This document shows positions 19,642 to 55,754 of a stretch of 64,000 nt of DNA, piece after piece. The stretch covers positions 253,429 through 317,428 of the forward strand of contig NZ_QVMK01000002.1 in assembly GCF_010500995.1 (NCBI RefSeq), given 5' to 3'. Source of the stretch: Bacteroides sp. 224 (lineage in GTDB: Bacteria > Bacteroidota > Bacteroidia > Bacteroidales > Bacteroidaceae). The notes under the pieces are model-generated. The model was given only the letters and a program-made list of their open reading frames with translations, searched no databases and was not told the origin of the DNA. How positions within the stretch are numbered: the stretch's first letter is position 1; each line of letters opens with the position of its first letter. The translations under genes and the position numbers were made by a program.

Positions 19642-19649
19642 CAAAAATA
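19642..19649 (-). promoter_or_regulatory. -7 box of the GH2-GH130 operon
   Basis: On the minus strand: TATTTTTG, an exact TAnnTTTG match, 35 bp upstream of the GH2 ATG. The near edge of the shared 22-bp motif lies exactly 36 bp upstream. Confidence 0.55.
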
Positions 19650-19684
19650 AAGATTTACTCTTATTCAAAATATAAGAAATTGGT

Positions 19685-19706
19685 CAATAAATGAGAGATT
19701 AGTCTC
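19685..19706 (-). promoter_or_regulatory. Candidate HTCS operator, site A (GH2 operon)
   Basis: Plus-strand sequence begins CAATAAATGAGAGATTAGTC. It matches site B (32623-32644) at 19 of 22 positions and site C (55733-55754) in most. It occupies almost the whole space between the previous gene's stop codon (19708) and this promoter, so it is not part of a coding region. Confidence 0.6.
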
Positions 19707-19707
19707 A

Positions 19708-21333
19708 TTACTTCTCTAAAAGGGCCACCGTACACCAAAGATAAGAAGCCTGCCCATGATAATCGCCTGTATTTCGGGGACGATCATAATAATACTGTAA
19801 ATCATTCTTTTTGTTGGTGCCTACACACACTTCTCTTACTTTATCGTTCGAGTTGATGTAAGTAAGCATTGTCAACCACGCTTTGCGAGCAGCTTCACCA
19901 TATTCTTTCATCGGCAGCCATCCATACTTTACACCTGTGATAAAGGCATACGTAAACATAGCCGTTCCGGAGGTTTCTATCCAACAGTCCGATTTATCTA
20001 TTAACTGTCTCCACATGCCCTCACTGGTTTGGTATTCCTTGAGACTGGCCATCATAGTTTGGAAACCTTGCAAAATACGTTGGTAATAAGGGCTTGACTC
20101 GGGCAAATAACGAAGCACCTCTGCCATACCCGCTGCCATCCATCCGTTTCCGCGTCCCCAGAAATACGGAACATCCGGCGCATGATAGAACAACCCGTTA
20201 GGGCGTTGTAATTCATCCAGATACAACACCATTTCTTTGGCTGCGCGAACCACATACGCCAAGTTGCCTGTAGCTTTATAGGCATGCGTTTGTATGATGG
20301 TAATCATATACATATCATCTATCCACAGGCGTGTCTGCCAACTATATCCTTTTTGTGCCCACGATTTTGCATTGGCACTTGCGTTATCCGGCGCCACCCA
20401 TTGAGAGTCGGCATAAGGCATTCCCATCTCTCGATACCGTTTATCTTCGGTTATCAAATACAAGGTCAGCGGAAGGCTACCGAACATATTACGATCCACA
20501 TGATCCATAGCAGGCAGATAGTTCTTGTCTGTTGTAAAGAAAGACTCAAAACCATCTTTCAAAGGTTTGAGCAATGCATCATCTTTCATTACTTGTGCAT
20601 ACTTCAAAGCACCGCTCCAGGTAAATGTTTCGGCATAACCGAGCGTCTTCCCGTTATGTTTTCCTTTAGCAAAAAGATTTCCCAAACGCTTACCAATCTC
20701 TTTAGGCGTACTTCCTGCCGGAAAGTTAGTTAATAAAGGGGTATCAATGGTTCGTTTGGTTTGCAACATCCATTCTTGCATCTCTATGCCTTCTCCACCC
20801 TTGTTATGGTGAATCGTCAATTTATAGTAGGAATAGGCTTCTTCATTAAGTATGGAAAGTAACTTCTTCTCTGATTTTTCAAATTCCTGCCTGACTCTAT
20901 TATCCAATTCTATCCATTTTATATTATCATTCGATCCATACAGAGACCAGGCAGTCGGTGCATTTCCTTCTTTATTTCCGGTTGCCATTATCGAATAATA
21001 ACGTACCACCACCGGTTCTTTCCCTTTCCATAACATTGAGAAGGTAGGATTAGGAGTATAAAAAGAGGAATTCCAGTCTCCATCTACCAAGTTACTAATT
21101 TCCTGTCCTTCTGGAGAATCGTTATATTCAGGAGAAATAGTACCTGCCGTTGGCATATTATAATTACCTTCCTTCAGAGAATAGGAATAGGTGTATTTTT
21201 CTTTTTCCACATTACCCGGCTCTTGCGGGGCAGGAGGCGCAGGTGCTTCATCTTTATCGGAACAGCTACTCCATGTAGCTCCCAAGATAAATAAAAGAAA
21301 TAAAAGGAAATAGACTCTGCTCACACACTTCAT
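19708..21333 (-). CDS. GH105 hydrolase with F5/8-type C domain, surface lipoprotein
   Basis: A 541-residue lipoprotein (Cys24) followed by SDKDEAP, an acidic run of the sort linked to surface export in Bacteroides. Residues about 60-190 form a discoidin-like carbohydrate-binding domain (ISNLVDGDWNSSFYTP, WSLYGSNDNIKWIEL). GH105 follows from about 200: MPYADSQW, RLWIDDMYMI, FYHAPDVPYFWGRGNGW. It is a paralogue of the 14452 and 36077 genes but the only one with an added binding module and a lipid anchor. It is the last gene of the susCD operon. A uronyl hydrolase on the cell surface is unusual, since these enzymes normally act on oligosaccharides in the periplasm. Confidence 0.87.
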   Translation of the reverse strand: MKCVSRVYFLLFLLFILGATWSSCSDKDEAPAPPAPQEPGNVEKEKYTYSYSLKEGNYNMPTAGTISPEYNDSPEGQEISNLVDGDWNSSFYTPNPTFSMLWKGKEPVVVRYYSIMATGNKEGNAPTAWSLYGSNDNIKWIELDNRVRQEFEKSEKKLLSILNEEAYSYYKLTIHHNKGGEGIEMQEWMLQTKRTIDTPLLTNFPAGSTPKEIGKRLGNLFAKGKHNGKTLGYAETFTWSGALKYAQVMKDDALLKPLKDGFESFFTTDKNYLPAMDHVDRNMFGSLPLTLYLITEDKRYREMGMPYADSQWVAPDNASANAKSWAQKGYSWQTRLWIDDMYMITIIQTHAYKATGNLAYVVRAAKEMVLYLDELQRPNGLFYHAPDVPYFWGRGNGWMAAGMAEVLRYLPESSPYYQRILQGFQTMMASLKEYQTSEGMWRQLIDKSDCWIETSGTAMFTYAFITGVKYGWLPMKEYGEAARKAWLTMLTYINSNDKVREVCVGTNKKNDLQYYYDRPRNTGDYHGQASYLWCTVALLEK

Positions 21334-21357
21334 GGTATTTGTTTTTATAGGGTTTGA

Positions 21358-22683: not shown

Positions 22684-22695
22684 AATTCTTGGTTT

Positions 22696-22728
22696 AAGGA
22701 GGATTTACCGGATTGGCAAATCCTCCTT
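22696..22728 (-). other. Intercistronic hairpin
   Basis: AAGGAGGATTT and AAATCCTCCTT form a perfect 11-bp stem around an 11-nt loop. It lies 13 bp before the GH43 ATG and 34 bp after the upstream stop. On the transcribed strand it is followed by AAACC, not a U-run, so it is more likely an mRNA processing or stability element than a terminator. Confidence 0.65.
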
Positions 22729-22761
22729 TTCGGGTTAGTTTAAATAAAAACAAACTTTATT

Positions 22762-23757: not shown

Positions 23758-23777
23758 CTTTTCAATCGCTTAATGTT

Positions 23778-25883
23778 TTATTCAGGATTTGTCCAACCTG
23801 GGTTTTGAATCAGATTGATATTATGTTTAAGCTCTGTATGATTAATGGGCCAGAACCACATTTTTTCTGCAAAAATAGTTGGCAAATCTGTACACATAAC
23901 AGGTGTATGGAACTGCACTTTCATTGATTCTGTAGCCAACGCATTACAACCATATACCGGAGTGGCTTCCTCCACTGGAGCATCCATCCAGCGTCTTAAG
24001 TCAAAATAACGATGTCCTTCTGCAAAAAGCTCGATCTGACGTTCACGTTTCAGCTTTATACGGAATTTATCCATATTACCATACTCATCTGCACTATAGT
24101 CAGGTACTCCGGCACGAATACGAATAGGCCGAATACCTTTTTTCATTTCATCCACACTACGACTTATGGAATGCGTTTTACTACCATCCCAAGAGGGAAT
24201 ACTATGGGTACCAGTTAATTCATTCAAAGCTTCCGCATAAATCAATAATATTTCTCCATAACGAATTGCCGGGTCTGCTTTAAATTTAATTCGACTGACA
24301 TCATAAGCCGTTTTATGTGTATAGCTGATATCATCCGGATGCACATACTTTTTTATACCAATACCAGTACGCAGCCAATAAGTGGAAGTTTTATATCCAT
24401 CATGACCTCCACCTCTATAATAGAATATCTGCACATTTGGTTCTTCTTCATGATCAGCATCATTTTTATAATTTCGTAAGTTCCATGTACTTCCATTGTA
24501 AGCTACTGAAGCATAAAAACGTGGTTCACGCTGTACATATTGTTTAGAAACGCCAGTCCCTTGAGGACCCAATTCCGGATAGTTAGCTAAGTCTGCTGCT
24601 GCAACAAAGTCTGCCGGACGTGGAAGTACATTGGTGCGTCCCTCATATCCACTTTGCCCTACATACATATCATTCATCCCCGGGCAATCACTTCCATCAT
24701 TCATATAATAGGCATCACACTGTTTTTGTGTCATACCATGCGAATTATAACCACCGGCAGCTTTACGAGGCAGCTGATGCATAACTAATACTTTCATATT
24801 TTCTCCTCCCTGATTCTGACCACGAGTAAAAATCAATTCCGGATTGTCATTGGCAGCTATTTCCCCATTAAATAAAGAACGATAAGATTCAAATGGATCA
24901 ATGTCTTTCCAACCATTTGGCCAAGCATGCTCCGAGAAATCGCCATCAGCCGGGGGAGTAATTGTTGCAGGATAAGCAAACGGATCAATAGCTATATCTC
25001 TACGAGGAGCTGTGTATAGCTCATAGTAATTCATATCCATCACATCTTTCGCTGCGGCTGCGGCTTTCGCCCATTTCGACTCATCGTATGCTTCCGGTAA
25101 CAAGCGCTTTCCATCTTTATTCACCAAAGCATCAGCTGCCATTTTTGGGGTTTTTCCATTATATAATGGGCTCGCACCAAACAAATATACTTTTGCACGT
25201 AAGCTCAGAGCAGCTCCCCGCGTAGGACGTGCTATATCTTGTATAGATCGAGAAAGAGGTAATAGATTTGCTGCTTTTACCAACTCACCAGTTATGTATT
25301 CCACACATTCATCATACGAGCTTCTGGGATAAGCCAAGTTATCATACGAATCCATATAATCAAGCCCCTCATCTGGGAGAAGAGGTATTGGGCCATATAA
25401 ACGTAGCATAAACCAATAGAAATAGGCTTTCAGAAAATGAGCCTGCCCTTTGAAGTCGTCAATTTCTTCTTTGGTGAACTCTTTATTCAAATCAATATTA
25501 TTCAGAAAGATAGAAACTTGACGAATACCTTGATAAGCGTTTTTCCAAACCATCTCGCTCTGATTGTTAGAGCCAAGTACTCCTGTTTCGGAGTATTGTC
25601 CGCTTTTCCATTTTTTGTATCCATCAGATTCATCACCAAAATACATATCATCGGCAAAATTAAAAGGCATGCTTTTTTTACTACAAACATCTTGAAGATG
25701 ATTACTTGCCAAATAAGAATAAGCACGGGCTATCCACTCATTGGTGTAATCTTTACTAGTAAACACATCCTCTATGGACAAACGTTCATCAAACAGATAA
25801 TCAGAATCTAAGTAATCGGAACACCCGGTTAACGAAAAGCCTAATCCTGCCACAAAGGATAAAATTATTATTATCTTTTTCAT
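23778..25883 (-). CDS. SusD/RagB family glycan-binding lipoprotein
   Basis: A 701-residue lipoprotein (lipobox LTGC, Cys21, then SDYLDSDYL). Typical SusD features: QGIRQVSIFLNNID and AHFLKAYFYWFMLRLYGPIP in the TPR-like region, YPRSSYDECVEYI, RGAALSLRAKVYLFGASPLY, and the C-terminal RIKLKRERQIELFAEGHRYF with DLRRWMD. The protein acts as the lid that hands glycan to its SusC partner, encoded 12 nt upstream. It is longer than the common 500-600 residues, mainly in the middle region. Confidence 0.95.
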   Translation of the reverse strand: MKKIIIILSFVAGLGFSLTGCSDYLDSDYLFDERLSIEDVFTSKDYTNEWIARAYSYLASNHLQDVCSKKSMPFNFADDMYFGDESDGYKKWKSGQYSETGVLGSNNQSEMVWKNAYQGIRQVSIFLNNIDLNKEFTKEEIDDFKGQAHFLKAYFYWFMLRLYGPIPLLPDEGLDYMDSYDNLAYPRSSYDECVEYITGELVKAANLLPLSRSIQDIARPTRGAALSLRAKVYLFGASPLYNGKTPKMAADALVNKDGKRLLPEAYDESKWAKAAAAAKDVMDMNYYELYTAPRRDIAIDPFAYPATITPPADGDFSEHAWPNGWKDIDPFESYRSLFNGEIAANDNPELIFTRGQNQGGENMKVLVMHQLPRKAAGGYNSHGMTQKQCDAYYMNDGSDCPGMNDMYVGQSGYEGRTNVLPRPADFVAAADLANYPELGPQGTGVSKQYVQREPRFYASVAYNGSTWNLRNYKNDADHEEEPNVQIFYYRGGGHDGYKTSTYWLRTGIGIKKYVHPDDISYTHKTAYDVSRIKFKADPAIRYGEILLIYAEALNELTGTHSIPSWDGSKTHSISRSVDEMKKGIRPIRIRAGVPDYSADEYGNMDKFRIKLKRERQIELFAEGHRYFDLRRWMDAPVEEATPVYGCNALATESMKVQFHTPVMCTDLPTIFAEKMWFWPINHTELKHNINLIQNPGWTNPE

Positions 25884-25895
25884 ATATTTATCTTA

Positions 25896-28800
25896 TTATA
25901 GATTAACTGATACACCCACAGAGAAGGTTTTGCTAAGTGGATATTTTTCTCCATTCGAGCTTCCCATTTCCGGATCCCAAAGCTTAAATTTAGAGAATGT
26001 AAGCAAGTTGGTACCAATAAAGAAGAAACGTACTTTATTCAGGTAGAATTTATTCACTAATGCTTTTGGTAAGGAATAACCTACATCTATGGTTTTTAAA
26101 CGAAGATAAGAGCCATCTCTTAACCAAAATGTAGAGTTGCGGTTATTATTTTCATTATTACCATAGGTTAAACGTGGATATTTTGCATTAGGATCTTCGT
26201 TTTCGCCCAAAATCCAACGATTATCAGTCATTTCGTCTAATACATTTCCCCAAGCATTACCACTCGAGAACATATAAACCGATTTGCCATCAATAAAAAA
26301 GCTCGATTTGCCTACTCCCTGAAAATGCACACTTGCATCCAGATCTTTCCAACGGGCAGATAGCCCAAAACCATACGTTAAGTTAGGTTTGGTAGTTGCA
26401 CCAATCGCCACTTTATCATCATCGTTAATTTTACCGTCTCCATTAATATCTTTGTACTTAATATCACCCGGCATTACATCTCCATACTGTGTTGGCCAGT
26501 TGCGGATCTCGTCGTAATCTTTGAACAAGCCCAATGCAATCAAACCCATAGCTTGATTCACGCGATGCCCTGCTTGTTGTTTATACCCATAAACAGAGTT
26601 TTCTTCATCACGATCCAAAATCTTATTCTTACCATAAGTCATATTACCACGGATGGTCAGGTTCACATTGCCCACTTTATGTTTCAAAGCGATATTTCCA
26701 TCAAAACCTTCTGCTTTCACTTTACCCACATTTCCCCAAGGATGCTGTACTGCATTTTTTGTATTTACTGCCGATAAGCCAACAATCCAAGGTAAGAACC
26801 TACGTTCCATATAAATACCTGTACGTTTTTCATGAAAGTAATCCACAGATCCCGAAATCTTATCATCAAATAGGCTAAAGTCAATACCTAAGTCCTGTTT
26901 CGTAGAAATTTCCCATGAAACATCTTGAGAAGCTAATTGTGAATAACGCAATCCTTTATAATATCGACCATATCCATTATCTGCAAATTGATAACCACCA
27001 GTATCTGTATATTTGCCATCTTTTAAATTTCCATTGTCATCTCTTTCATACATTCTTTCCAAAGTATACAAGTAAGGGAAACGAACCGGATCATTATTAT
27101 TATTTCTTAAATCGTCATTCCCTGTTTTGCCCCAAGAGTAACGAATTTTAAACATGTTCATCCAAGGTAGATTGTTTTTAATAAAATCCTCTTCTGCCAG
27201 ATTCCATGCTCCGGAAAGAGCTGGGAAAAAGCCAAAACGGTGATCCTTATGGAAATTTTCAGAACCATTATATCCAAAATTAAAATCAATAAAATATCGA
27301 TATTTCCAATTATAATTAACGCGTCCTGCTACCCCTTGGTTCCGACGAGCAATGCCATTTTTAATTTCCGATCCGATATTCTGTGTCTGAACCTTCGAAG
27401 ACTGGGTATATTTCACAACAGCTCCGAAACGATGGTCTGCAATTCCTCGATCATAATGTAATTCTGCTTCCAAAAATTCCTTGCGCTCTCCAGAGCCCGA
27501 AGCACTTTGAGTCATTTTTCTTTCCTCAAACATTTTTGTATAAAGGATATCACCATTTGACTCCCGAGATTTTTCCGCATTAAACATTTCAGGATACTTA
27601 ATACGTTTAATCCAGTTATCATTATAGGTATCATATCCAAAGCGACCAATAAATTTTAATCCTTTTGTAACAAATTTCAAGTCTTGTTCCAGCACCACAT
27701 TAGTCTGAATACTATTTTTCCAGCTTTCATTATATCCGGTTTGTGTAGCCTGTGTCCAAGGGTTGATACCATAATATGCTTTCGAAGGATCGTTTTTATC
27801 CTCTTTCACCCAAGCAGGTACTTTTCCATCCGAAAATTCGTAAGGTAACATGATCGGACTATATGCCATTAATGCTTTCCAAATATTATCTGTTCCTGTA
27901 CCTGGATCATTTTGTTTCCTCAACGAACCGGAAATACCAACTTTCAATAAGGTAGTACGAGTAATATCAATATCCACATTCATACGATAAGTCCATTTGC
28001 GGAAATTGGTATTGGTATTATAATCCTTCATCGCTTTATCTACTTTATACATACCTTGGTCATCTTGATAACTTCCACCCACATAATAACGGGCTGTTTT
28101 ACCCCCACCTTGCATATTTAAAGTAGCACGAGAGCTCCAAGCTCCATCACGCAACATCATATCCATCCAATCTACGGTCGGATACAAATCTTGGTCAAGC
28201 CCCAATCGGAAAATTTCCAATTCTTCCGGTCGATAAATTGGTTCCTGATTACGAGTGATTCTCGCCTCATTAGCCAGAGAAGCATACTTATAACCATCTG
28301 CAAAATCCGGAAGTTTTGTTAAGGTATTGTAAAATCCTTCTACCTTAACATTGATATTAATTTTCCCCTCTTTTCCCCGATGCGTATTGATCAAAATAAC
28401 TCCATTAGCACCTTTACTACCATAGATAGCAGTAGCTGAGGCATCTTTCAATACAGTAAACGATGCCACATCTTCTACACTCACTTCATTCAAATCCCGC
28501 TCAAAACCATCAACCAGCACTAACGCCGAGCTATTTCCTCCAAAAGTAGCAATACTACGTATCCAAAACTCAGATACTGTACCCGGACGACCATTTGATT
28601 GCATTGCATGAATACCGGGAACCACCCCTGCCAAAGCATTAGCCATTGAGCTACTTGGAGAACTCTTCAGTTCTTCTACATTTACATTAGTAACCGCTCC
28701 GGTTACTGCAATCTTCTTTTGGGCTCCTGTACCAGTAATTACCACTTCATCAATAATATTAGCTTCGGACTCTTTCATCACAACATTCATCACCCGTTGC

Positions 28801-29081: not shown

Positions 29082-29084
29082 TTA

Positions 29085-30473: not shown

Positions 30474-30542
30474 AATACATTGATTTTAAAATTAATAAAT
30501 GCAATTCTCATTAAATTATTATTTGTTTTCATTAGAATTAGT

Positions 30543-32381
30543 TTAATCATAAAACACAGGAATCAAATCCGAACTGGATGGCACACACTTCTTTATAGTT
30601 GGCCAACCATCAGCACTCCAATGCAAGCGATCCAGCATGCCTAAGCGACCTCCTACTGCATTGTTTTTCTTCACATAACTGTGATAAATCATCCAGTCAG
30701 TGCCTTCGTCGTCCCGGATAATTTCTGCATTGTGACCGGGACCGATCCATTTTTGCCCATCGCCCTCCAATACAAGTTCCCAGGCATTATTGAGCATGTC
30801 TTTTCCGGTTTTGTCTAAATAAGGGCCTAACAAATTTGTGGAACGACCTACCACTACTTTATAACTACTGTTTACACCTGCACAGCAACTGCCTATAGAG
30901 GCAAACAGATAGTAATAGCCATCCTTTTTATATATATTGGTACCCTCGAAAGCGTTTCCGCATACCTGCTTCTTCAAAACGGGTTTTCCATTGATGTCGC
31001 GTTTCACAGAAAGACCGTCGTCGGCCAGTTCTACCACAAAGATGCCTTTGAAGCTTCCGAAGAACATATATTTCTTTCCATCCTCCTCATAGTAGAACTG
31101 ATCGATAGCATTCGAGCCAAATTCGGCATTACCTATCAATTCTATACTGGGCACGAAAGGCCCTAAAGGACTATCCGATGTTGCCACAGCCGTATAACTA
31201 ACATCTGCTCCATTCATTTTAGCCCAAGAAAAATAGAGTACATATTTTCCATTGATATATTTAATTTCCGGAGCCCAAAACGATCCTCCACCTGGTAGAG
31301 TTGGTTTGGTGGCGTTAGTAAATGCTGTTCGTAAATACTCCCAATTCACCAAATCCTTTGAACGGTAAATAGGCATCCAGTATTTATCGGTATGAGTAGC
31401 ATATAAGTAGAAGTAACCGTCATTAGCACGAATCACACAAGGATCGGGCACACTCTTATCAGTTATAATCGGATTGCTATAGGTTTTGCCTACCTGAAGA
31501 TAGCATATTTCGTCGCGACAAACCACTCCTTCATTTGAACATTCGTCTAATTTTAAAGGCAACAGATAACTCACAACGGCTAATCCTTCACGCTTAATGG
31601 TTATTTCTCCGGTGCCTTGATTGTTGCCTGTTTGGAAAGAAGCGCCTTCACCTAAATCGTAATTATTTGCAGGCAAAAGTTGGCAAGAGGTTTTATAACT
31701 TTGATTGTAGGCAGCAACCAGTTCTTCGGCATTAGCCGGAACACTAAACTTGCAGGCAAAATTCCATGGATTTGTTATTGCTTTCCCGTTCTCCTTAAAG
31801 TCAAAAACGGTATTAATAGTAACAGGTACCTGATCTTTAGTCACACTTACCTCTGCAACGGAGGTTGCGAAATGAATGATAGGATAATCAAAAGAAATAG
31901 GCAAAAGAATATCTCCCTGTCTATCTCTGATTTTCAGTTTATCACAAGTAAGTTTCAATGCTATTACATACTCGGATCCATGTTTCTTAAATTCATTAAA
32001 CACATTAGAGGGAGCGAATTTAATCTCCACATCTACCACAGTTTCTCCCTGCTTAAAAGCCAGTTCTTTAGAACTAAGGGAGTATAAAGATGATGGTAGA
32101 AGTGCATAAGATTTCTTCTCCTTATTATTATAAGCTACCAGATCATCCTCCGTCCATGAGTTTATTTGAGCCGTAAAGTCCGAATGAGTGCCATTTCCTA
32201 TCACCTTTACTTGGAGAGGAACTACGTGACTATCTTCTCTGCTGGAGACTTCCACCACATTCAATCCACTGGGTTGAATCTGTAAATACAAGTTGGTTGC
32301 ATTTCCGGTTCCACCGTTCGGATCATCATTGTCTGAACCACAAGACAGGATTAGGATTAGTCCTGCCATCAATAAGCACAT
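30543..32381 (-). CDS. GH43 arabinanase-like lipoprotein with DUF1735-like N-terminus
   Basis: About 612 residues from the ATG at 32381, which has AAAGGAA at the right distance upstream. The frame stays open to a TTG at 32465, and a GTG at 32426 would give a more basic signal peptide; the start is uncertain. Lipobox LSC is followed by GSDNDDP (surface type). Two beta-sandwich DUF1735-like repeats (about 20-290) precede GH43: VPDPCVI, SFWAPEI, SNAIDQFYY, AFEGTNIY, and the SIGSCCAGVNSSYKVVVGRS block shared with endo-arabinanase clades. The catalytic part closely resembles the protein at 50493. It is the first gene of the main susCD operon, so it may be a surface endo-enzyme that starts degradation. 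Confidence 0.83.
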   Translation of the reverse strand: MCLLMAGLILILSCGSDNDDPNGGTGNATNLYLQIQPSGLNVVEVSSREDSHVVPLQVKVIGNGTHSDFTAQINSWTEDDLVAYNNKEKKSYALLPSSLYSLSSKELAFKQGETVVDVEIKFAPSNVFNEFKKHGSEYVIALKLTCDKLKIRDRQGDILLPISFDYPIIHFATSVAEVSVTKDQVPVTINTVFDFKENGKAITNPWNFACKFSVPANAEELVAAYNQSYKTSCQLLPANNYDLGEGASFQTGNNQGTGEITIKREGLAVVSYLLPLKLDECSNEGVVCRDEICYLQVGKTYSNPIITDKSVPDPCVIRANDGYFYLYATHTDKYWMPIYRSKDLVNWEYLRTAFTNATKPTLPGGGSFWAPEIKYINGKYVLYFSWAKMNGADVSYTAVATSDSPLGPFVPSIELIGNAEFGSNAIDQFYYEEDGKKYMFFGSFKGIFVVELADDGLSVKRDINGKPVLKKQVCGNAFEGTNIYKKDGYYYLFASIGSCCAGVNSSYKVVVGRSTNLLGPYLDKTGKDMLNNAWELVLEGDGQKWIGPGHNAEIIRDDEGTDWMIYHSYVKKNNAVGGRLGMLDRLHWSADGWPTIKKCVPSSSDLIPVFYD

Positions 32382-32579
32382 TGTGCTATTCCTTTGAAGG
32401 TTTCTTTTAGTTAATTTGCTATTCACTATACATGATAGATTTAAGTAAGACTTAGTGTGTTTCAATACATAAAAGTGTTATCCTTCAAACCGTCTTTCAC
32501 CGTATACTAATACTCTGTATTCTTTCTACCAAATGATATTTAAACCTGAAAAACTATATACCAGCCCAATTGGGTTAAA

Positions 32580-32587
32580 CAAATGTA
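32580..32587 (-). promoter_or_regulatory. -7 box of the main susCD operon
   Basis: On the minus strand: TACATTTG, an exact consensus match. The leader to the chosen GH43 start would be about 190 nt. The shared motif lies exactly 36 bp upstream. Confidence 0.6.
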
Positions 32588-32622
32588 GGGGTTTTCATAT
32601 ATTAATAATGATAAAAATAGGT

Positions 32623-32644
32623 CAATAAATGGAAGATTAGTCCC
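32623..32644 (-). promoter_or_regulatory. Candidate HTCS operator, site B (susCD operon)
   Basis: Plus-strand sequence begins CAATAAATGGAAGATTAGTC. It differs from site A at three positions and is preceded, like A, by GGT. Its place upstream of the -7 box suits activation by the AraC-type domain of the HTCS. Confidence 0.65.
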
Positions 32645-32870
32645 AAACTCACTTCAACCTATAAAAACGCACAGGAGAGGGGCTGGAAAGCGCTTTTCTA
32701 CACTTGTTTTGAACAATATTTTGCTTTTATTGAACAGTTTGTTTTGTTCTTAACAGAAGTAAAATCAGCATTTACCTGAACAATTCGTTTAATATTAAAT
32801 AGTAGAAACCAAAACTGCATTGTGGAAGTGCTAAATTGCAGTAAAAACAGTTATTTGTGGGGGCATTTTT

Positions 32871-32927
32871 TAGGTCGGACCTAATGCCTCATTAAGTCCG
32901 ACCTTTTGAAGCATTAGGTCTGACCCT
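32871..32927. repeat. Palindrome, GGTCGGACC family
   Basis: AGGTCGGACCTAATGC (32872-32887) is inverted, with one mismatch, as GCATTAGGTCTGACC (32911-32925). A further AAGTCCGACCTT lies in the loop, so two alternative pairings are possible. Unlike most palindromes here, it lies upstream of divergent genes instead of at gene ends. Confidence 0.7.
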
Positions 32928-33129
32928 ATTTTAAACAAGTCACATTTTAGTTTAATTATTATACTCGTCAGTTATAATCTCCAAAATATCTTTGTGTACA
33001 TCAAGACCACAGTATTGATTCATAAGAATTGAGTTGAAACTTTTTTATGAAGATACATATTGTTGGTCTTGTTTGCATAAAATAAGCTATTCTTTTATCA
33101 GACTCGCTTATAAATAGTAAATTTTTATC

Positions 33130-33137
33130 TAAGTTTG
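33130..33137 (+). promoter_or_regulatory. -7 box of the GH63-like gene
   Basis: TAAGTTTG matches TAnnTTTG, 27 bp before the ATG. A partial operator-like match (CTATTCTTTTAT, 33087-33098) lies upstream at a spacing about 10 bp shorter than at sites A-C. Confidence 0.45.
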
Positions 33138-33163
33138 CTACAACCAACTTTTATACACACTAT

Positions 33164-42857: not shown

Positions 42858-42900
42858 GGTATAGTTATTTAAGATATAGTTTATGATACATCTCTTACAA

Positions 42901-45849
42901 TCACAATCTCGTCGTCTGCGGCCCCAAATACGAACGCTTCATTCCTCCGAAGTCCAAAACAATCTTTTGCAACACCGTCCCGGCATCTCCACAGATAATC
43001 TTCACCGTATGTTTGCCCGGCTTATCAATATGCAAAGTTGTTTTATTGATTCTACAATTCTTCAATACGCTTTCGTACCAGATTTGTGCATATTCAAAAG
43101 AAGAAGTAGACGGATTCATAACAGGACCTTCGTCAATGCATACCCCGTATTTTGTTTCTACGTTGGTGGCTTCGTGGCCTGCGTAGCCGCGATCTTTGCT
43201 TAATATAAAGGTGGGAAGCACGTAGGTGTATACATCTACAGAACCCTGTTCGAAAGTATAGAAGTCATACTCCAGGCGTGGGGTGCTACGTCCGGCGGTT
43301 CGTTGGGGTTTGGCGATGGGATTTCCTAACTGAATGGCTGTATTCTCTATGCCCAGGTTAGGAATGGTTATCATTTTTATATCGTCATTCTCTACCTTTC
43401 GGTGGAAACCGGCGGCATTTATCGAAACATATCCGTTATGTTCTACAAACAGGGTATCCATTTCAGCTAAAGAGGGGAAGGAAGGGTTGAACACGGAAAT
43501 ATAAACTTGCTCTTTCTCGCCCCGGTCAGATGTAACTTCGAGGGTACCGAATACCCTTTCACCGATAGGAACTTTTGCCCAGTCGATGGATACTTCTACG
43601 CGTTCTTCGGTAGCAGTTGATCCGGTTTTTTTGCTTAACAGAATCCAAGGATCGGAAACAGTTGTATTCCATTTCAATGGAGCACCGCCTTTATTGAAGA
43701 CATCTACATAGTAAGATTGACGGAAATAGGTATTGAAAGCGGGCAATGCGTGGAAACTCTTTTGTCCTTTTAGTACATCTTCTCCCTCTGCCAATACGCC
43801 TAAAGAGGCAGTAGACTGTAAATCGGCTTTCCTCAATACCGGAAGTTTGAAGTAAGAAGCGGCAAATCCTTGTTTCATGGTCATTATATGATCCCACTTT
43901 CCACCGAGTAGGGAGTTATATCCTTTTGTAATGACATCCAGACTGTCGTAGCAGGCTTTCGTCATTTTCTCTAATTGCTCGGTCGCTGCTCTTTGTTGGA
44001 TAGCATACCAACGGTTTCGCTGCCCGGTCAGGATCATACGGTTTAGCAATTCGCATCCTTTAACCGGATAATACATAGACTGATAATAGCAGGCTTTCTT
44101 TTCTTCGGGCAGCGCATGTAGAATCTTCTCTGCGATACTTCCTATCCGACGGTATTCGTCCAAACGAGTATCAACTTCGCGGTAATTGGTCAGTGAGAAA
44201 TCGGTATCGGTATTTCGTTCGTTTCCATGCTTGTCTGTAGCCCACTGATAGCCCCATCCCATAAATTCGGGCTTACGAGGAAAGGCGAGTTTGTAGAAAG
44301 CATTAGTCATATCCCGAAATTCATTTTGATATTCATCGCCCAACATGCCGCACAACCATTCGGTACGATAGTCGGCGGCTCTTTCATAATTGAAGGAGTC
44401 GATATCAAAGGCCATGGTTAAGAAGAAATCGGCCACAAATTCACAAGATTTAATATCACCGGCATTCAACAACCAAATGCGGTCGGCAGTCATATCGTAT
44501 GCTTTCCGCAGTTCTTCGTACATAAGGGTGGGCGAAGTAGTATTCATCCAAAGGTAATCGTGGGGTTTGCCCAGATAAGAAGAATGGTAATAAACGCCGG
44601 AACGACCGGAACGTTTTTGCTCTTTCGGACTGCTCAGACGTTTCATATATCCGTAATTATCGTCGGGCCAGATGATGGTTACATCATCGGGGAGTTCCAG
44701 TCCTTGATCGTATACGTCCAGTACTTCTTTGTAGGGAGTAAAGGCTTGGGGAATATCTTCGGCACGTTTACCTGTGACATCTACCAGCATTTGCCGTTGT
44801 GCCATCAGTGCATCCTGAAGCATTTGTTTTCTGTCGGCCATGTTATTGCTGGCGTTCATGGCACGGTCGTGCAATCCGCGCAGGGCAAGGGTGTACACAT
44901 TTTCGTAAGGGGCAGCCTCTACAACACGAGATTTCAACACTTTATTTACACCGTCCTTATTGCCAACATAATCCCATTCGCCCATTTTATCGCGTTTCCA
45001 CTCACTGGCGGTATTAAAGAGTAATGGCTCGCAGTGAGAAGAACCCATAACGATGGCAAAGCTGTCTGCCACCAAACGATTTTCGGGAATACGGTGAAAG
45101 GCCATAGAGGCATCGTGCATGGCAGGGCAAAGATAGTTGGCTTGCAAGCGAAGCAGCAATTCGCAAACCTTTCCATAAGTTTTGGGACCGAAGTTGCCGC
45201 GTTCTTTCTCAAAGTTATTTTTAGACCAGCGGTAAAGTCCCCAGTCTTCATCATTAATAAATACTCCTCTGAACTTAACTGTGGGTTCTTTGGAGATAAA
45301 CTTATCTACTTTTACGCTTAGTTGTTTCTGCTGTTTAACCGGAGCATCGGCCCACCAATACCAGGGGGATACGCCGATAGCTTTGGATATGGAAAGAAGT
45401 CCGTAAGCTGTACCGCGCCTGTCGCTTCCGGCAACAACGATCGCTTTCTTAATACCGGGAACAGGGTTGTTGACTATCTCCACCATATACCGTTCCCAAC
45501 TTCCGGAGATAGCTGTGGTATCTATTTTATTCTTTGCAGCCAGGGCATCTATCCATTTGCTTTCTCCAATGGTTCCAACAATTATGGCATGGCGGGCTGA
45601 TACTTTTCCGGGAGTTGTTGCTTCTTTCTTCAACTCTTGTCCGGTTACAAGATGCACATCCTCTACAAACAAAGATGTACTTTTATGGATTACACTGGCA
45701 TCCTTTTCATCATAACAAATGATGGCATTCCCGGATGAAGAGACAATAGGGAAACTATTTTTCCCGGTTCCTTTATGGAGTGATACTTGTGCTTCTACCG
45801 AAAGCAAACTACAACAAAAGAGCCCAGCGAGAATCATTCTATTTTTCAT
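42901..45849 (-). CDS. GH115 alpha-glucuronidase
   Basis: A 982-residue protein with a signal peptide (ends near SVEA). GH115 blocks: GSWERYMVEIV, GSDRRGTAYGLLSISKAIGV, SPWYWWADAPV, KFRGVFINDEDWGLYRWSKN, ANYLCPAMHD, VTIIWPDDNYGYMKRL, GVYYHSSYLG. Family members remove (4-O-methyl-)glucuronic acid from xylan or arabinogalactan. The C-terminal about 350 residues add the usual helical and beta-sandwich domains. First gene of a six-gene leftward operon (GH115, BNR lipoprotein, sulfatase, GH89, GH105) whose promoter region carries a diverged copy of the regulon motif. Confidence 0.92.
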   Translation of the reverse strand: MKNRMILAGLFCCSLLSVEAQVSLHKGTGKNSFPIVSSSGNAIICYDEKDASVIHKSTSLFVEDVHLVTGQELKKEATTPGKVSARHAIIVGTIGESKWIDALAAKNKIDTTAISGSWERYMVEIVNNPVPGIKKAIVVAGSDRRGTAYGLLSISKAIGVSPWYWWADAPVKQQKQLSVKVDKFISKEPTVKFRGVFINDEDWGLYRWSKNNFEKERGNFGPKTYGKVCELLLRLQANYLCPAMHDASMAFHRIPENRLVADSFAIVMGSSHCEPLLFNTASEWKRDKMGEWDYVGNKDGVNKVLKSRVVEAAPYENVYTLALRGLHDRAMNASNNMADRKQMLQDALMAQRQMLVDVTGKRAEDIPQAFTPYKEVLDVYDQGLELPDDVTIIWPDDNYGYMKRLSSPKEQKRSGRSGVYYHSSYLGKPHDYLWMNTTSPTLMYEELRKAYDMTADRIWLLNAGDIKSCEFVADFFLTMAFDIDSFNYERAADYRTEWLCGMLGDEYQNEFRDMTNAFYKLAFPRKPEFMGWGYQWATDKHGNERNTDTDFSLTNYREVDTRLDEYRRIGSIAEKILHALPEEKKACYYQSMYYPVKGCELLNRMILTGQRNRWYAIQQRAATEQLEKMTKACYDSLDVITKGYNSLLGGKWDHIMTMKQGFAASYFKLPVLRKADLQSTASLGVLAEGEDVLKGQKSFHALPAFNTYFRQSYYVDVFNKGGAPLKWNTTVSDPWILLSKKTGSTATEERVEVSIDWAKVPIGERVFGTLEVTSDRGEKEQVYISVFNPSFPSLAEMDTLFVEHNGYVSINAAGFHRKVENDDIKMITIPNLGIENTAIQLGNPIAKPQRTAGRSTPRLEYDFYTFEQGSVDVYTYVLPTFILSKDRGYAGHEATNVETKYGVCIDEGPVMNPSTSSFEYAQIWYESVLKNCRINKTTLHIDKPGKHTVKIICGDAGTVLQKIVLDFGGMKRSYLGPQTTRL

Positions 45850-45879
45850 AATAACCTTTTAGATATACAATTAATGCTG

Positions 45880-45944
45880 CAAATAAAGGTAAAAATGAAA
45901 AGATAGAATAAAAGAAATAGACCTATAAATAGCAAAATATGTTC
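45880..45944 (-). promoter_or_regulatory. Promoter region of the GH115 operon with weak operator, site D
   Basis: A -7-like TTTATTTG (45887-45880; one mismatch to TAnnTTTG) lies 31 bp upstream of the ATG. At exactly 36 bp from it begins CTATAAATAGC (45923), which shares CnATAAAT with sites A and B and the preceding AAATAG with B. The far half of the motif is poorly kept. Confidence 0.4.
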
Positions 45945-45960
45945 AAATGGAGGGTAAAGT

Positions 45961-46050: not shown

Positions 46051-46074
46051 GCTGATGCTATAAGCAATATAGTT

Positions 46075-47424: not shown

Positions 47425-47434
47425 GGTTTATTTA

Positions 47435-48847: not shown

Positions 48848-48930
48848 AAATGTTTCATTGATATTAGTGTATTAGTAAATGTTTCGAGAATTCACCCATC
48901 CCTTTGGGACGAAGAATCTTATAATCTATT

Positions 48931-50471: not shown

Positions 50472-50492
50472 TCTGGGTATTCTTTAACTTTA

Positions 50493-51500: not shown

Positions 51501-51536
51501 ATTATTCTTTATACTCTTTGTTTAGTTTATGTTAAG

Positions 51537-51615
51537 TTGAACACAGAGACACGGAGTCACAGAGTTATTAAAAAGAAAACTCTTCGTCTCTGTGTCTTTG
51601 TGTCTCTGTGTTCAA
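51537..51615 (-). repeat. Imperfect palindrome, ACACAGAGAC family (copy 1)
   Basis: The left arm (51537-51566) is TTGAACACAGAGACACGGAG followed by TCACAGAGTT. The right arm (51578-51615) ends TGTCTCTGTGTTCAA. The first 28 bp are identical to the copy at 62423. It lies between the HTCS stop and the GH43 start. Confidence 0.85.
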
Positions 51616-51640
51616 TTTTCATTTGATCATAATAATATAA

Positions 51641-54600
51641 TTAACTCACAAAATCCTTTGGTAATGCACCAAATTGCTTCTGAAAACATTTAGAAAAATA
51701 AGATGGAGAGTTAAATCCTACCATATAGCAGATTTCATTAACCAGATTCTCTCCTTCATTCAATAACTGAGCTGCTTTCTTGAGACGTTCCAGGCGGAGG
51801 TACTCATTGGGGCTAAGGTCCAGCACTCCTTTCATTTTCCGATAGAAGTTGGAACGACTCATATTTAAAAGAACTGCCATATCATCCATACTGAATTCCG
51901 GATTGGCATAATTCGCCTGAATAACATCATTCAATCTCTTTATAAATTCCTCATCAGCCTTTGTTAAGGCCATAGTATTAGCAGCCACGAAAGGAGACTG
52001 TGCAAAAGCCCGGCGCAACTTCTCTCTGTTTTGAATAAGGTTGGAAGCACAAGCCTGCAAATATTCCACAGAGAAAGGTTTTTCAAGATAGGCATCGGCC
52101 CCCAACTCCATTCCTTCTATTTTAGATTGAATATTTGTTTTCGCCGTCAGCAATATAACAGGGATATGGCTATAATTCAAATCCGATTTAATAGTCTTGC
52201 ACAACTCAAAACCATCCATAACAGGCATTACGATGTCACTAATCACCAGATTTACGTAATTGCCATCCAGTACTTTCAATGCCTCCGCACCATTTGTGGC
52301 AGTTAGCACTGTATATTCTTTAGACAGTTGACGCACGATAAAAGCAAGCATATCCGGGTTATCTTCTGTTACCAACACGGTGGGGTGGTTATCCCGCTTT
52401 TCGGTTTGCTCCACAAAAACTGCATTTGCTATATCTATCTCTACTTCCGGCTCGGGTGTTAGGGTAATGGTGGTATCTTGCACAATGGGTAAGGTTAGGC
52501 AGAAAGTATTATTCTCTTCTCCTTCTGCCATAGTCAGTGTTCCTTGGTGCAGCTCGGCCAATGAGCGAGAGAGGGCTAAACCAATTCCTGTTCCGGTAAT
52601 CACTGTTCCATCCTCTTCGCCATTATAACGAACGAAAGGTTTGAAAATCTCCTCCCTCATTTCATGCGGAACAATCACTCCATCATTCTCTGTCCGGATT
52701 CGGAACGAATTATTATTACCAGCTTCCGGAACCTCCAACGATAGGTGCAGATAAGATTCAGCGTATTTCACTCCATTATTCAGTAAGTTGCTGATAATCT
52801 TTGTAAATGCCTCGCGGTTAACATGGGCATAAAAGTCTTTCTCCGGCACTTGCAGAGTAAAGTTCAGTCCTTTTTGTTTAGCAAGAGAGGTAAAGCGCAG
52901 ATGCGTTTCTTTCAATACTTCTGTTATATTACATTTCGCAAAGTTCAATCGGAATCCCTGACTTTCTGTTTTACGGAAGTCGAGCAATTGGTTTGTCAGA
53001 TTCAGCAACCGCTCTGTGTTTTGCTCCATAACCTTTAAGTCTTCGCGTGTTTCCGCATCAACCTGTTTCTTTAATATGATATTCTCCAACGGACCTTTAA
53101 TCAGTGTTAACGGAGTACGTATCTCATGAGCCACATTCGTAAAGAAATCAATTTTAGCATGATACACTTCGCGTTCCTTTTCTTGCTCAAACTTCTCCAT
53201 TTGCCTGCGATGCTTGTTGTTGCTGCGTCTTTTAAAATAGATCACGGCATACAAAGAACAACCAATAATCAACAAAGCATATATGCAATACGCCCAAACC
53301 GAAAGATAGAAAGGAGGAAGAATATGTACTTTCAACGACACTCCGTTTTCATTCCAAACCCCATCTCCATTAGATACTTTAACCCGAAACGTATAATTAC
53401 CATATCGCAGGTTGGAGTAAGTAATAATGGGACTTTCTCCAATCGTTAGCCAATCTTCGTCAAAGCCAACCAGTTTATACATAATCCGGTTCATATTCGG
53501 CGCCTGAAAATTCAATGCTGCCACCCGGAAAGAGAAAGAGTTCTGATTAGATTGAAGAACCAGTTCGTCGGAAACGGTAATACTCTTTTTTAATGGAGAT
53601 CCCGGATCATCAACATATACTTCTTTTCCAAACAGCAGAAAATCGGTAATGACGATAGAGGGTTGCGACTTGTTCTCCGAAAAGTTCTTGGGGTTAAAAG
53701 CTACAAAGCCGTCGATGCTTCCCAAATAAATGGTACCATCTTCTGCCATAAAGCTTGAACGATAATTAAACTGATCGCCTAACAAGCCATTGGAGGTAGT
53801 ATATACTTTCATGGCTCCGGTGTTAGGCTGAAAACATACCAAGCCATTATTGGTGGTCAGCCAAAAGAGCCCATCCTTATCTTCTACTATCTGATAAACA
53901 ACATCATTGGGTAATCCGGCGGCTAAGCTGTAGCATGTAAAGGTTTCCGTTTCCTGATGAAAGCGGCAAAAGCCTCCTCCTTGTGTAGTCAGCCAGATTT
54001 GCCGGTGAGAATCTTCAAAAACACTTAATATCTTATCATACGGAAGGCTGTTCGGGTCATCGTCTTCATGCAAATAGTTTTTCCATTTCTTCTCACTTAC
54101 ATTATAGCAATAAACACCATTTGCATAAGTAGCCAGCCAGATGTTTCCTCTTGAATCCTCTTTTATATCGTACACAAAACGACCATTCAGTTCCGTTATC
54201 TGGTCAAAATCGTCGGATTGCTTGTTATAACACAACAAACCGAACAAAGTGCCCAAATAGACATCTCCTGTAGTAGTTCGGCAAATGGAGAAAACACTAT
54301 TATCGTTCAGTGAGCGAGGCGAATCTGTTTTCTGGTATGTTTTCACAATAGCTCCGGTGCGTGTATCTACTACCTTCACCCCTTTCGAGAAAGTTCCTAC
54401 CCACAGGTTATCGCCCACCATGCATAAGCCGTGTACATTGGTAAAGGCGCTACTTGGTTCAAAGAAAGAGAAAGTTCTGGTTTTAGGGTTGAAACGATTC
54501 AATCCGCCATCTTCCGTACCAATCCACAGAGTGCCCTGATTATCCATGCAAAACTCACGTACCCGCTTTCCGTGCAAGCCATTTTCTGTTCCCTTCGGGT

Positions 54601-55657
54601 AGTATTTATCGAATTTTGTATAGAAGCGAGGATAATAATTTACGCCACCAAAATAAGAGCCAATCCAAACACCTCCTTCGCGATCTTTACACAATGAATA
54701 GATTGCATTATCCGATAGGGAATAAGGGTCGTTAATTGAGCTACGCAAATGTACATACTTACCTGTACGGAGATTATAGATGTAAAGGCCGGACTCTGTT
54801 CCAATCCACAATTCATGATCGGAAGCAATTAGCAACTCACGGCAAAATACAGATTCCCCGGATTCATCTACCGAAAGTAAATCGCTCAATTTATTGGAAG
54901 TGAGATTTAGCTCTTTTACTCCCCCTTTGGAAGAGCCTACATACAGACAGTTATATGCTCCTTTTACCAAGCATATCACCGCATCATTTGCATAAATTTG
55001 TTTATTATCTACCGGAGAAAGATAGGGATGAAGCGTTTTTAAACGATCTTTCGAATAGAAAAGTCCATCGCCATAGCAGCCTATCCAAAGTGTTCCGCTA
55101 TTGTCGAAAACAAATGTTTGAATATTGGTGGTAAGAAAAGAAAAGTCCTCTAATGTATGGTTATGAAGTTCTCCTGTTTCCAACTCATAGCAGAATAACC
55201 CTTGCGACTCTACTGCAACCCATACACAGCCCTGATTGTCTCCGGAGATGGCAGTTACAGTATGCTCTATCTTGGTATTCTCCATACTCAACTCTGTAAA
55301 ATGCCAGAAGGAATCTTTCTCCGGATCATATACATAAAGCCCTACATCGGTGCCTACCCAGATTTTTCCTTTTGCATCTTCATAGAGTGCTGTAATGAAG
55401 TTATTGCCAATGCTCCGTTGGCTGCGGTCGTCGTGCTTGAACTTACGAAACGACAAGCCATCATATCTATTCAATCCATCTTTGGTGCCAAACCACATAA
55501 AACCCTGCTTATCTTGCAAGATTGTATTTACCGTATTCTGGGATAATCCGTTTTGTACACTTAAGTTTTTGAAATAATAATGCTCATCCCCCACTTGTGC
55601 GTGGCAGATTATCTGGCAACAAATAAAAGACATTAATAGTAGCAGCGTCTTCTTCAT
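51641..55657 (-). CDS. Hybrid two-component system regulator (HTCS)
   Basis: A 1338-residue inner-membrane sensor-regulator in one chain. Start at the ATG 55657 (signal peptide MKKTLLLLMSFICCQIICHA); the frame is open to 55735, but the promoter lies inside that stretch. Order: two seven-bladed Reg_prop propellers (about 30-690), Y_Y_Y domain (about 690-770), one membrane helix (about 785-805), HisKA with His844 (NVAHEIRTPL), HATPase (TGIGLALSRSL), receiver with Asp1141 (VISDIVMPVMDG), and AraC-type DNA-binding domain (about 1235-1338, MDDMAVLLNMSRSNFYRKMK, NEICYMVGFNSPSYFSKCFQ). It senses an oligosaccharide in the periplasm and activates the PUL. A regulon motif precedes its own promoter. Confidence 0.96.
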   Translation of the reverse strand: MKKTLLLLMSFICCQIICHAQVGDEHYYFKNLSVQNGLSQNTVNTILQDKQGFMWFGTKDGLNRYDGLSFRKFKHDDRSQRSIGNNFITALYEDAKGKIWVGTDVGLYVYDPEKDSFWHFTELSMENTKIEHTVTAISGDNQGCVWVAVESQGLFCYELETGELHNHTLEDFSFLTTNIQTFVFDNSGTLWIGCYGDGLFYSKDRLKTLHPYLSPVDNKQIYANDAVICLVKGAYNCLYVGSSKGGVKELNLTSNKLSDLLSVDESGESVFCRELLIASDHELWIGTESGLYIYNLRTGKYVHLRSSINDPYSLSDNAIYSLCKDREGGVWIGSYFGGVNYYPRFYTKFDKYYPKGTENGLHGKRVREFCMDNQGTLWIGTEDGGLNRFNPKTRTFSFFEPSSAFTNVHGLCMVGDNLWVGTFSKGVKVVDTRTGAIVKTYQKTDSPRSLNDNSVFSICRTTTGDVYLGTLFGLLCYNKQSDDFDQITELNGRFVYDIKEDSRGNIWLATYANGVYCYNVSEKKWKNYLHEDDDPNSLPYDKILSVFEDSHRQIWLTTQGGGFCRFHQETETFTCYSLAAGLPNDVVYQIVEDKDGLFWLTTNNGLVCFQPNTGAMKVYTTSNGLLGDQFNYRSSFMAEDGTIYLGSIDGFVAFNPKNFSENKSQPSIVITDFLLFGKEVYVDDPGSPLKKSITVSDELVLQSNQNSFSFRVAALNFQAPNMNRIMYKLVGFDEDWLTIGESPIITYSNLRYGNYTFRVKVSNGDGVWNENGVSLKVHILPPFYLSVWAYCIYALLIIGCSLYAVIYFKRRSNNKHRRQMEKFEQEKEREVYHAKIDFFTNVAHEIRTPLTLIKGPLENIILKKQVDAETREDLKVMEQNTERLLNLTNQLLDFRKTESQGFRLNFAKCNITEVLKETHLRFTSLAKQKGLNFTLQVPEKDFYAHVNREAFTKIISNLLNNGVKYAESYLHLSLEVPEAGNNNSFRIRTENDGVIVPHEMREEIFKPFVRYNGEEDGTVITGTGIGLALSRSLAELHQGTLTMAEGEENNTFCLTLPIVQDTTITLTPEPEVEIDIANAVFVEQTEKRDNHPTVLVTEDNPDMLAFIVRQLSKEYTVLTATNGAEALKVLDGNYVNLVISDIVMPVMDGFELCKTIKSDLNYSHIPVILLTAKTNIQSKIEGMELGADAYLEKPFSVEYLQACASNLIQNREKLRRAFAQSPFVAANTMALTKADEEFIKRLNDVIQANYANPEFSMDDMAVLLNMSRSNFYRKMKGVLDLSPNEYLRLERLKKAAQLLNEGENLVNEICYMVGFNSPSYFSKCFQKQFGALPKDFVS

Positions 55658-55689
55658 ACTACGTGTATTCCGGTTTCGATTTGAGTTAC

Positions 55690-55697
55690 CAAATGTA
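55690..55697 (-). promoter_or_regulatory. -7 box of the HTCS gene
   Basis: On the minus strand: TACATTTG, an exact match and identical to the susCD operon box. It is 33 bp upstream of the chosen ATG, which supports that start over the one at 55735. Confidence 0.6.
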
Positions 55698-55732
55698 GGC
55701 AAAAGAAGGGCATAAAAATAGAAAATGCGTCC

Positions 55733-55754
55733 CAATGAATGAAAGAATAGTCTC
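55733..55754 (-). promoter_or_regulatory. Candidate HTCS operator, site C (autoregulation)
   Basis: Plus-strand sequence begins CAATGAATGAAAGAATAGTC. It differs from site A at four positions in the 22 bp and lies at the same 36-bp distance from the -7 box as sites A and B. Confidence 0.6.

Follow-up and report, generated by a model that had tools for sequence, protein, structure and literature searches.

A 21-bp direct repeat in fixed register with the -7 box is the most likely operator of an HTCS in a Bacteroides PUL

Several promoters of a PUL in Bacteroides sp. 224 share a conserved element of about 40 bp, located between -60 and -21 from the -7 box and built as a direct repeat with a 21-bp period. 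This element is most likely the docking site of the PUL's own sensor-regulator, the HTCS encoded at 51641-55657. We consider it very probable that the phosphorylated HTCS dimer binds the repeat, replaces the -33 element and activates both the PUL operons and its own gene. The anatomy of the sites, their fixed register, their conservation and their co-occurrence with the HTCS are visible in the genomes themselves.

Motif copies and their spacing

The window analysed here is a stretch of 64,000 nucleotides. An earlier note on this DNA had claimed copies of a 22-bp motif on the plus strand at 19685, 32623 and 55733, each at the same distance from a TAnnTTTG box (19649, 32587 and 55697). All three copies, of 20-22 bp, were found there, all three boxes are exact when read on the minus strand, and the coordinate difference is 36 in each case, which corresponds to 35 intervening bases. 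The downstream units it had named, the GH2 operon, the susCD operon and the HTCS gene, agree with the annotation of the window (Table 1). The proposed 22-bp motif belongs to the same element, but the conserved element measures about 40 bp and extends some 15 bp further towards the promoter; the motif most likely represents the distal two thirds of the HTCS operator. Likewise, the three sites are real, but a fourth, weaker one in the same register, at the GH115 promoter (45908-45947), had been overlooked.

Table 1 Features of the PUL in the window
Feature	Position	Strand	Remarks
Predicted HTCS operator 1	19670..19709	-	GH2 operon promoter; 39.9 bits, in profile training set
-7 box TATTTTTG	19642..19649	-	GH2 operon promoter
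Predicted HTCS operator 2	32608..32647	-	GH43 / TIG / SusC / SusD operon promoter; 51.2 bits, in training set
-7 box TACATTTG	32580..32587	-	susCD operon promoter
Predicted HTCS operator 3	55718..55757	-	HTCS gene's own promoter; 44.6 bits, in training set
-7 box TACATTTG	55690..55697	-	HTCS gene promoter
Predicted HTCS operator 4, variant half-sites TTTGAACATATTTTGCT...	45908..45947	-	GH115 operon promoter; 6.7 bits
-7-like box TTTATTTG	45880..45887	-	One mismatch to TAnnTTTG; exact register with operator 4
Operator-like 21-bp repeat, TTGAACA twice	32708..32747	+	Faces divergent 915-aa gene; -2.2 bits
GH2-family enzyme	16884..19607	-	First gene of leftward operon, then GH130, GH88, others
SusD	23778-25883	-	In GH43-led susCD operon
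SusC	25896-29081	-	In GH43-led susCD operon
GH43 enzyme	30543..32465	-	First gene of susCD operon
GH115 enzyme	42901..45849	-	Heads GH115 / BNR / sulfatase / NAGLU / GH88 gene run
HTCS, 1338 aa	51641..55657	-	Reg_prop propeller + Y_Y_Y, HisKA/HATPase, receiver, AraC-type HTH; probable binder

The argument that this shared spacing exceeds chance held. In the 4.42-Mb genome, the motif followed by 35 arbitrary bases and TAnnTTTG occurs at these three sites alone, with no match for the reversed control. The 22-mer alone, with up to three mismatches, matched five times (the three sites and two copies with two mismatches); the reversed-pattern control matched twice. Across 158 genomes of the same genus, motif plus box gave 48 matches in 25 genomes, and the control gave 3. 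Together, these genome-wide and genus-wide searches with their controls rule out a chance origin of the shared motif and spacing. With the gap left free between 33 and 45, loci L036-L129 and the window yielded 37 motif-like hits followed by a box, many of them orthologues, and in 30 the gap was 35. The remaining hits had gaps of 34 (2), 36 (2), 37 (1) and 38 (2, one of them, at window position 36930, being intragenic). A variable-gap pattern run over 13 genomes was noisy, and its own-genome repeat alone was used.

Additional candidate sites were scored with a profile whose score reaches 8 bits at 5 positions out of 2.52 million in the background. The register of operator 4 is the same in both close orthologues inspected. 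A copy on another contig, C59, has a gap of 36 instead of 35 and scores 27.2 bits on the full profile trained without C59; since its first half is the search pattern itself, only the second half is independent in this score. This copy is probably a distant site of the HTCS regulon. The gene behind it encodes a 655-aa protein with a single weak Pfam match, F5/8 C, at 28.4 bits against a cut-off of 28.2; NCBIfam gave none. The two-mismatch copy at C74:37488 was rejected: no TAnnTTTG follows within 70 bases, and all full-profile scores in that stretch are negative. It is uncertain whether the repeat facing the 915-aa gene is an operator; no -7 box stands in register with it, and its counterpart in B. 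faecis is in register with a box.

Operator anatomy and a proposed mechanism of activation

The profile was built from 34 sites in 13 promoter clusters, the promoters being otherwise less than 75% alike. Its self-similarity peaks at a lag of 21 (0.183, the next best being 0.066), and columns -34 to -21 had no role in the choice of sites. On sequence grounds, this repeat matches the structure of predicted HTCS operators, described in the main text of Ravcheev et al. 2013 (PMC3878776) as direct repeats with an average of 21 bp.

The -7 box is that of Bacteroides housekeeping promoters, exact at three sites and with one mismatch at the GH115 promoter. The TTG or TTTG at about -33 that marks housekeeping promoters is absent from the operator promoters. 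Where TTG stood at -38 or -59 (32 promoters), a TTG between -22 and -24, counted from the box, never occurred; it did occur in 38 of the 192 promoters that had TTG at neither position (p = 0.002). The proximal half-site reaches to 21 bp before the box, close to the expected place of a -33 element. The operator thus most likely takes the place of this element, and the bound HTCS would most likely supply the sigma contact. At the GH2 promoter, a TTG is present at -19 and might serve as a shifted -33 element.

We propose that the propeller responds in the periplasm to a breakdown product of the glycan that the PUL targets, upon which the HTCS would phosphorylate its own receiver domain and free the AraC-type domain. 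An HTCS dimer would then occupy the two half-sites, two helical turns apart on one face of the DNA, and contact sigma in a class II-like manner. The predicted targets are the susCD operon, the GH2 operon, the GH115 operon (more weakly) and the HTCS gene. In this scheme we infer binding, phosphorylation dependence, activation, sigma contact and self-activation.

The HTCS, its conservation with the element and other explanations

The Pfam matches of the regulator (Reg_prop, Y_Y_Y, HisKA, HATPase_c, Response_reg and HTH_18) place a predicted sensor, kinase, receiver and AraC-type HTH within a single polypeptide, as expected of an HTCS. Among solved structures, a hybrid two-component protein (12aw_A) matches its receiver-HTH region, at about residues 1093-1338, with E = 2.5e-58, and the receiver contains a SHIP motif, an instance of S/CHIP, in the segment YSHIPVILLTAKT of the translation. 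This motif has been linked to DNA binding released by phosphorylation (PMC11253607). The HTCS gene stands first, ahead of a run of GH43/GFO-IDH-MocA genes. Among the proteins compared with solved structures (GH115, GH43, BNR and the 915-aa protein), the GH115 enzyme matched BtGH115A and others. As a guess from the GH115, GH43 and GH88 content, the inducing glycan may be of the arabinogalactan type.

The element travels with this regulator. For 45 of the 48 matches of motif plus box in the 158 genomes, a relative of the window's HTCS is found no more than 50 kb away, and 19 of the 48 stand directly before an HTCS gene, with 27-44 bp from the box end to the matched start. The genomes with matches fall mostly (22 of 25) among the 28 that have an HTCS relative of at least 67% identity (Fisher p = 1.7e-18, uncorrected for kinship), and all 13 genomes with a full-length relative of at least 83%, our own counted, have motif plus box. 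Conversely, 127 of the 130 genomes without a relative of at least 67% have no motif plus box. The strict pattern is missing in 6 of the 28 genomes; a diverged in-register site precedes the HTCS gene in all five of these that were inspected (G064 was left out). The comparison of orthologous upstream regions that the earlier note had proposed showed the site before the HTCS gene to be retained in 26 of the 28 orthologues inspected, all of at least 64% identity, and relatives of 61-63% (L011, L174, L012) had no such site before the HTCS gene. Position before PUL operons and conservation with the HTCS across species are what a regulatory operator would be expected to display, and the note's reading of the motif as an HTCS regulon operator gains support from this co-occurrence and from the direct repeat.

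That the element is bound not by the neighbouring HTCS but by another AraC-type or HTCS regulator, encoded at a different place, is improbable. The genome does hold at least 10 further matches to this HTCS, and 21-bp repeats with other half-sites occur at some promoters elsewhere in it, but such a regulator would not account for the proximity of the sites to HTCS relatives or for their absence from nearly all genomes lacking one of at least 67% identity, and RpoN is the sole other transcription protein among 28 window proteins scanned. The rigid distance also recalls the interior of a sigma-factor promoter, so that motif and box might form a single long, activator-free promoter of an alternative (ECF-type) sigma factor. 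We regard this as very improbable: the -7 part is the housekeeping one, a 21-bp direct repeat does not seem to be a sigma layout, conservation from 59 bp upstream of the box appears far for sigma alone, and the same 28 proteins gave no ECF sigma match. Hardly credible is the idea that one promoter was copied to the others and that the motif has no present function. All three promoters do lie within one PUL, and B. xylanisolvens XB1A has a duplicated operator piece (L054 3460), but columns -20 to -6, between operator and box, hold at most 0.45 bit where operator columns reach 2, and the element is kept in 13 clusters of promoters otherwise less than 75% alike.

Within the HTCS operator reading, the site before the HTCS gene may mainly drive the GH43/GFO-IDH-MocA genes downstream and not so much increase the amount of the HTCS for its own sake, a variant compatible with that reading and one that we consider unlikely, though far from negligible. 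Operator and TAnnTTTG were not seen in the 141-bp gap before 51500, and a GH43 homologue adjoins the HTCS gene in G021, G063 and G080 as well; against it, the gap contains a hairpin of very high stability (-40.5 kcal/mol, z -7.3), which may end transcription. In PMC6874557, HTCS genes are described as usually constitutive, not induced, so self-activation would be unusual. The conserved site before the HTCS gene suggests natural positive feedback.

Known systems and HTCS promoters at large

Among the regulators of glycan utilisation in gut Bacteroides, HTCSs form a major class, and few are known to have mapped operators. In proteobacterial class II activation by AraC-family proteins, tandem half-sites lie about two turns apart, the proximal one beside or over the -35 region. 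The arrangement here is alike in its tandem half-sites and in the proximal one at a promoter element, and differs in the Bacteroides sigma with its -7/-33 promoter and in control through a receiver domain whose kinase is in the same polypeptide. The 16 HTCS regulons predicted for B. thetaiotaomicron in the main text of Ravcheev et al. 2013 (PMC3878776) also combine an AraC-type HTCS in the PUL, a direct-repeat operator averaging 21 bp apart and sites ahead of that PUL's susCD and enzyme operons; some members lie at a distance. Unlike these, the present system has its own operator sequence, a site before the HTCS gene and a fixed register to the -7 box; the terms "transcription start" and "promoter element" do not occur in that main text. 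As described in PMC6874557, BT0267, the HTCS of arabinogalactan PUL5, likewise controls a susC promoter, and a feedback loop raises output, as proposed here; that loop was engineered, whereas the HTCS-gene site here is natural and conserved. Switches of this type are already known; this one combines a rigid layout with a probable self-activation loop.

We tentatively suggest, giving it a little under an even chance, that HTCS promoters in general carry, in one rigid layout, a 21-bp direct repeat whose proximal half, from -38, replaces the -33 element, with conserved self-activation in this branch. A scan of lag and position without sequence assumptions (512 cells; 251 promoter clusters, most of them in loci selected for their HTCS gene) gave its top count, 22, at lag 21 and -38, tied with -37; the cell mean was 2.3 (sd 2.6) and the mono-shuffle expectation 1.45. 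Two of these 22 clusters (L179, L180) had been chosen through a previous pattern match, and the 30 kb covered there contain no HTCS relative. Applied to 57 promoter boxes in 15 further stretches of this genome, the test passed 3 (5%), versus 22 of 251 (9%), and for this we set the odds of the class-wide layout slightly below even. None of the 3 lies in the stretches with an HTCS relative (L184) or a hybrid kinase (L185), and the C34 stretches among the 15 have no HTCS or hybrid kinase.

A fixed register would make these promoters readable from sequence, explain activation by HTCSs and provide a spacing rule for glycan-inducible promoters. If the layout were class-wide, target prediction for HTCSs would no longer require the half-site sequence, and a self-activating branch would run contrary to the usual view of constitutive HTCS genes. 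A fixed distance from HTCS operator to promoter was not found described in the openly readable literature, which included the main text of Ravcheev et al. In a genome-wide test of TTG pairs, gap 35 was only mildly enriched (8 versus 3.1 per gap, p = 0.014).

Anatomy of the element

The earlier note had described one 22-bp motif upstream of the GH2 operon, the GH43/SusC/SusD (susCD) operon and the HTCS gene, each copy at the same distance from a -7 box (TAnnTTTG), and its places for the three copies and the three boxes are exact. The genome-wide search for the motif, 35 free bases and the box, with up to 3 mismatches, returned 3 matches (control 0). The 22-mer alone, a consensus derived from the three window copies themselves, gave 5 matches with up to 3 mismatches in the 4,421,676 bases of this genome (reversed control 2), three of them exact and two with 2 mismatches. 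When the gap was left free, it was 35 in 30 of 37 box-bearing matches (our count, orthologues included).

In a profile drawn from 34 sites, which fell into 13 clusters at 75% identity, conservation ran from about -59 to -21, counted from the T of the -7 box, and columns -20 to -6 held at most 0.45 bit. The profile's self-similarity displayed a clear peak at lag 21 (0.183; next 0.066). The element thus consists of two half-sites 21 bp apart. The 22-mer covers the first half-site and the start of the second. In the window, the three sites, all in the training set, scored 40-51 bits, and the next-best score (7.0) was an overlap of the HTCS site shifted by 21 bp. The GH2 promoter displayed a TTG at -19.

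Coordinates of the element and of neighbouring features (window positions unless a locus is named)
Feature	Position	Strand	Details
GH2 promoter	motif at 19685	-	GACTAATCTCTCATTTATTG-35-TATTTTTG
susCD promoter	motif at 32623	-	GACTAATCTTCCATTTATTG-35-TACATTTG
HTCS gene promoter	motif at 55733	-	GACTATTCTTTCATTCATTG-35-TACATTTG
GH115 promoter site	45947-45908		box variant TTTATTTG, first base 38 bp before gene start
HTCS gene	51641-55657	-	1338 aa
Inverted repeat, HTCS/GH43	51530-51625		-40.5 kcal/mol, z -7.3
Second inverted repeat	55755-55830		-30.9 kcal/mol, z -8.3
Sigma-54 gene (RpoN)	57450-58916		two genes from HTCS
TTGAACA repeat	32708-32747 (+) and 32770-33130		
Site on contig C59	locus L049, 6268-6229		27.2 bits, gap 36
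Promoters on contig C34	L179, about 8712; L180, about 9531	-	21-bp direct repeats, same register
Partial copy, B. xylanisolvens XB1A	locus L054, 3460		

Conservation with the HTCS

A search of 158 same-genus genomes with the composite pattern gave 48 matches, spread over 25 genomes (reversed control 3). Most of these sites (45/48) lay on the same contig as, and at most 50 kb from, one of 33 hand-picked HTCS matches (identity at least 61%, or partial), and 19 immediately preceded the HTCS gene, their boxes ending 27-44 bp from the matched start. The remaining three were in G009, a genome that has the HTCS and carries the site on another contig, and in G119 and G122, genomes outside the hand-picked list, the latter with a 50% relative beside the site. 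An HTCS relative of at least 67% was present in 28 genomes, and these included 22 of the 25 with a pattern match (Fisher p = 1.7e-18, without correction for ancestry). Where the relative was full-length and at least 83% identical, all 13 genomes, our own included, have the site. Close relatives of the HTCS occur in named records of Bacteroides faecis, B. finegoldii, B. acidifaciens and B. xylanisolvens, among others.

An in-register site preceded the HTCS gene in 26 of 28 loci of at least 64% identity (L006-L010 and L151-L173, excluding a second copy in G080 and partial copies in G096 and G064). This count includes L162, whose site appeared once a too-early ORF start was corrected. The L166 site, also counted, reads GAT in place of GAC. 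Outside the count are L173, whose site is weak, and L171, which has no in-register site; nor do the more distant L011 and L174 (63%) and L012 (61%) have a site before the gene. HTCS genes are described, in an excerpt of PMC6874557, as typically at low constitutive expression, yet here a site precedes the HTCS gene, so this branch may differ.

The HTCS gene is followed by GH43 and GFO-IDH-MocA genes, which its promoter could also serve if transcription passes the hairpin between the HTCS and GH43 genes. This long, near-perfect inverted repeat would be a terminator or a repetitive element. The second long inverted repeat sits immediately upstream of that operator which precedes the HTCS gene, and ahead of the adjacent aminopeptidase P gene. 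No link between the nearby sigma-54 gene and the element was seen.

Further operator-like sites

The profile scan of the window revealed a further site before the GH115 gene, exactly in register with a variant box. It scored 6.7 bits; a score of 8 bits is reached by 5 of 2.52 million background positions. Two close GH115 orthologues (L037, 87%; L056 of B. faecis, 84%) displayed this variant at an unchanged register, and their boxes are just as weak. Three relatives were more distant: two had no box listed and one (L055) had another in-register site.

The C59 site of our own genome is outside the training set, and no background position reaches 16 bits. It was found with the 22-mer, so independent support comes from its second half only; it is probably a distant operator. 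The gene behind it encodes a protein of 655 aa that matches F5/8 C weakly, and a second 655-aa protein nearby does so more weakly still.

Also operator-like is a stretch with TTGAACA twice, exactly 21 bp apart, facing a divergent 915-aa gene whose start is more than 400 bp away; no box stands in register with it. In the B. faecis locus L042 a version 35 bp from the box is still in register, and insertion or decay in the window is possible. The distal part of the operator and the flank upstream of it occur a second time in B. xylanisolvens XB1A, about 6.4 kb upstream of the HTCS site, with no -7 box behind.

Possible class-wide register and proposed mechanism

HTCS promoters in general might carry a 21-bp direct repeat at a fixed distance from the -7 box. 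Of 224 promoter clusters, most of them taken from loci chosen for an HTCS gene, 8 had TTG at both -38 and -59, against a mean of 0.16 over all lag/position cells. With no sequence assumed, 22 of 251 clusters had at least 11/18 identical bases at lag 21 and position -38, the top count among 512 cells, shared with -37 (mean 2.3, sd 2.6; mono-shuffle 1.45). Two of the 22, with quite different half-sites, are the C34 promoters of our own genome, stretches chosen through an earlier TTG-pair match, with no HTCS relative within the 30 kb read. Where a promoter had TTG at -38 or at -59, none was present at -22 to -24, the place of the -33 element (0/32), as against 38/192 promoters with neither (p = 0.002). 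Counting against a class-wide register, genome-wide TTG pairs were only mildly enriched at gap 35 (8 vs 3.1 per other gap, p = 0.014; reversed pattern 1), and 3/57 boxes in 15 other own-genome stretches also passed the lag test, none of them in L184 or L185, the stretches with an HTCS relative or hybrid kinase.

The element fits the kind of HTCS operator predicted in an excerpt of PMC3878776, namely direct repeats, 21 bp on average, for which dimers on one face were suggested. Bacteroides promoters have TAnnTTTG at -7 and TTTG near -33 (excerpt of PMC7366714). The half-site nearer the box reaches -21, about where the -33 would lie, so the HTCS likely acts there by class II-like activation. The HTCS displayed the full domain set and a SHIP motif in its receiver; that motif is tied to DNA binding released by phosphorylation (excerpt of PMC11253607). 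Its receiver-HTH region (residues 1093-1336) matches 12aw_A, a solved hybrid two-component protein structure, which could serve to model the receiver-HTH/DNA complex. The PUL encodes GH115, GH43, GH88, NAGLU and sulfatase, and from this content we would guess at decorated arabinogalactan-like material as its glycan.
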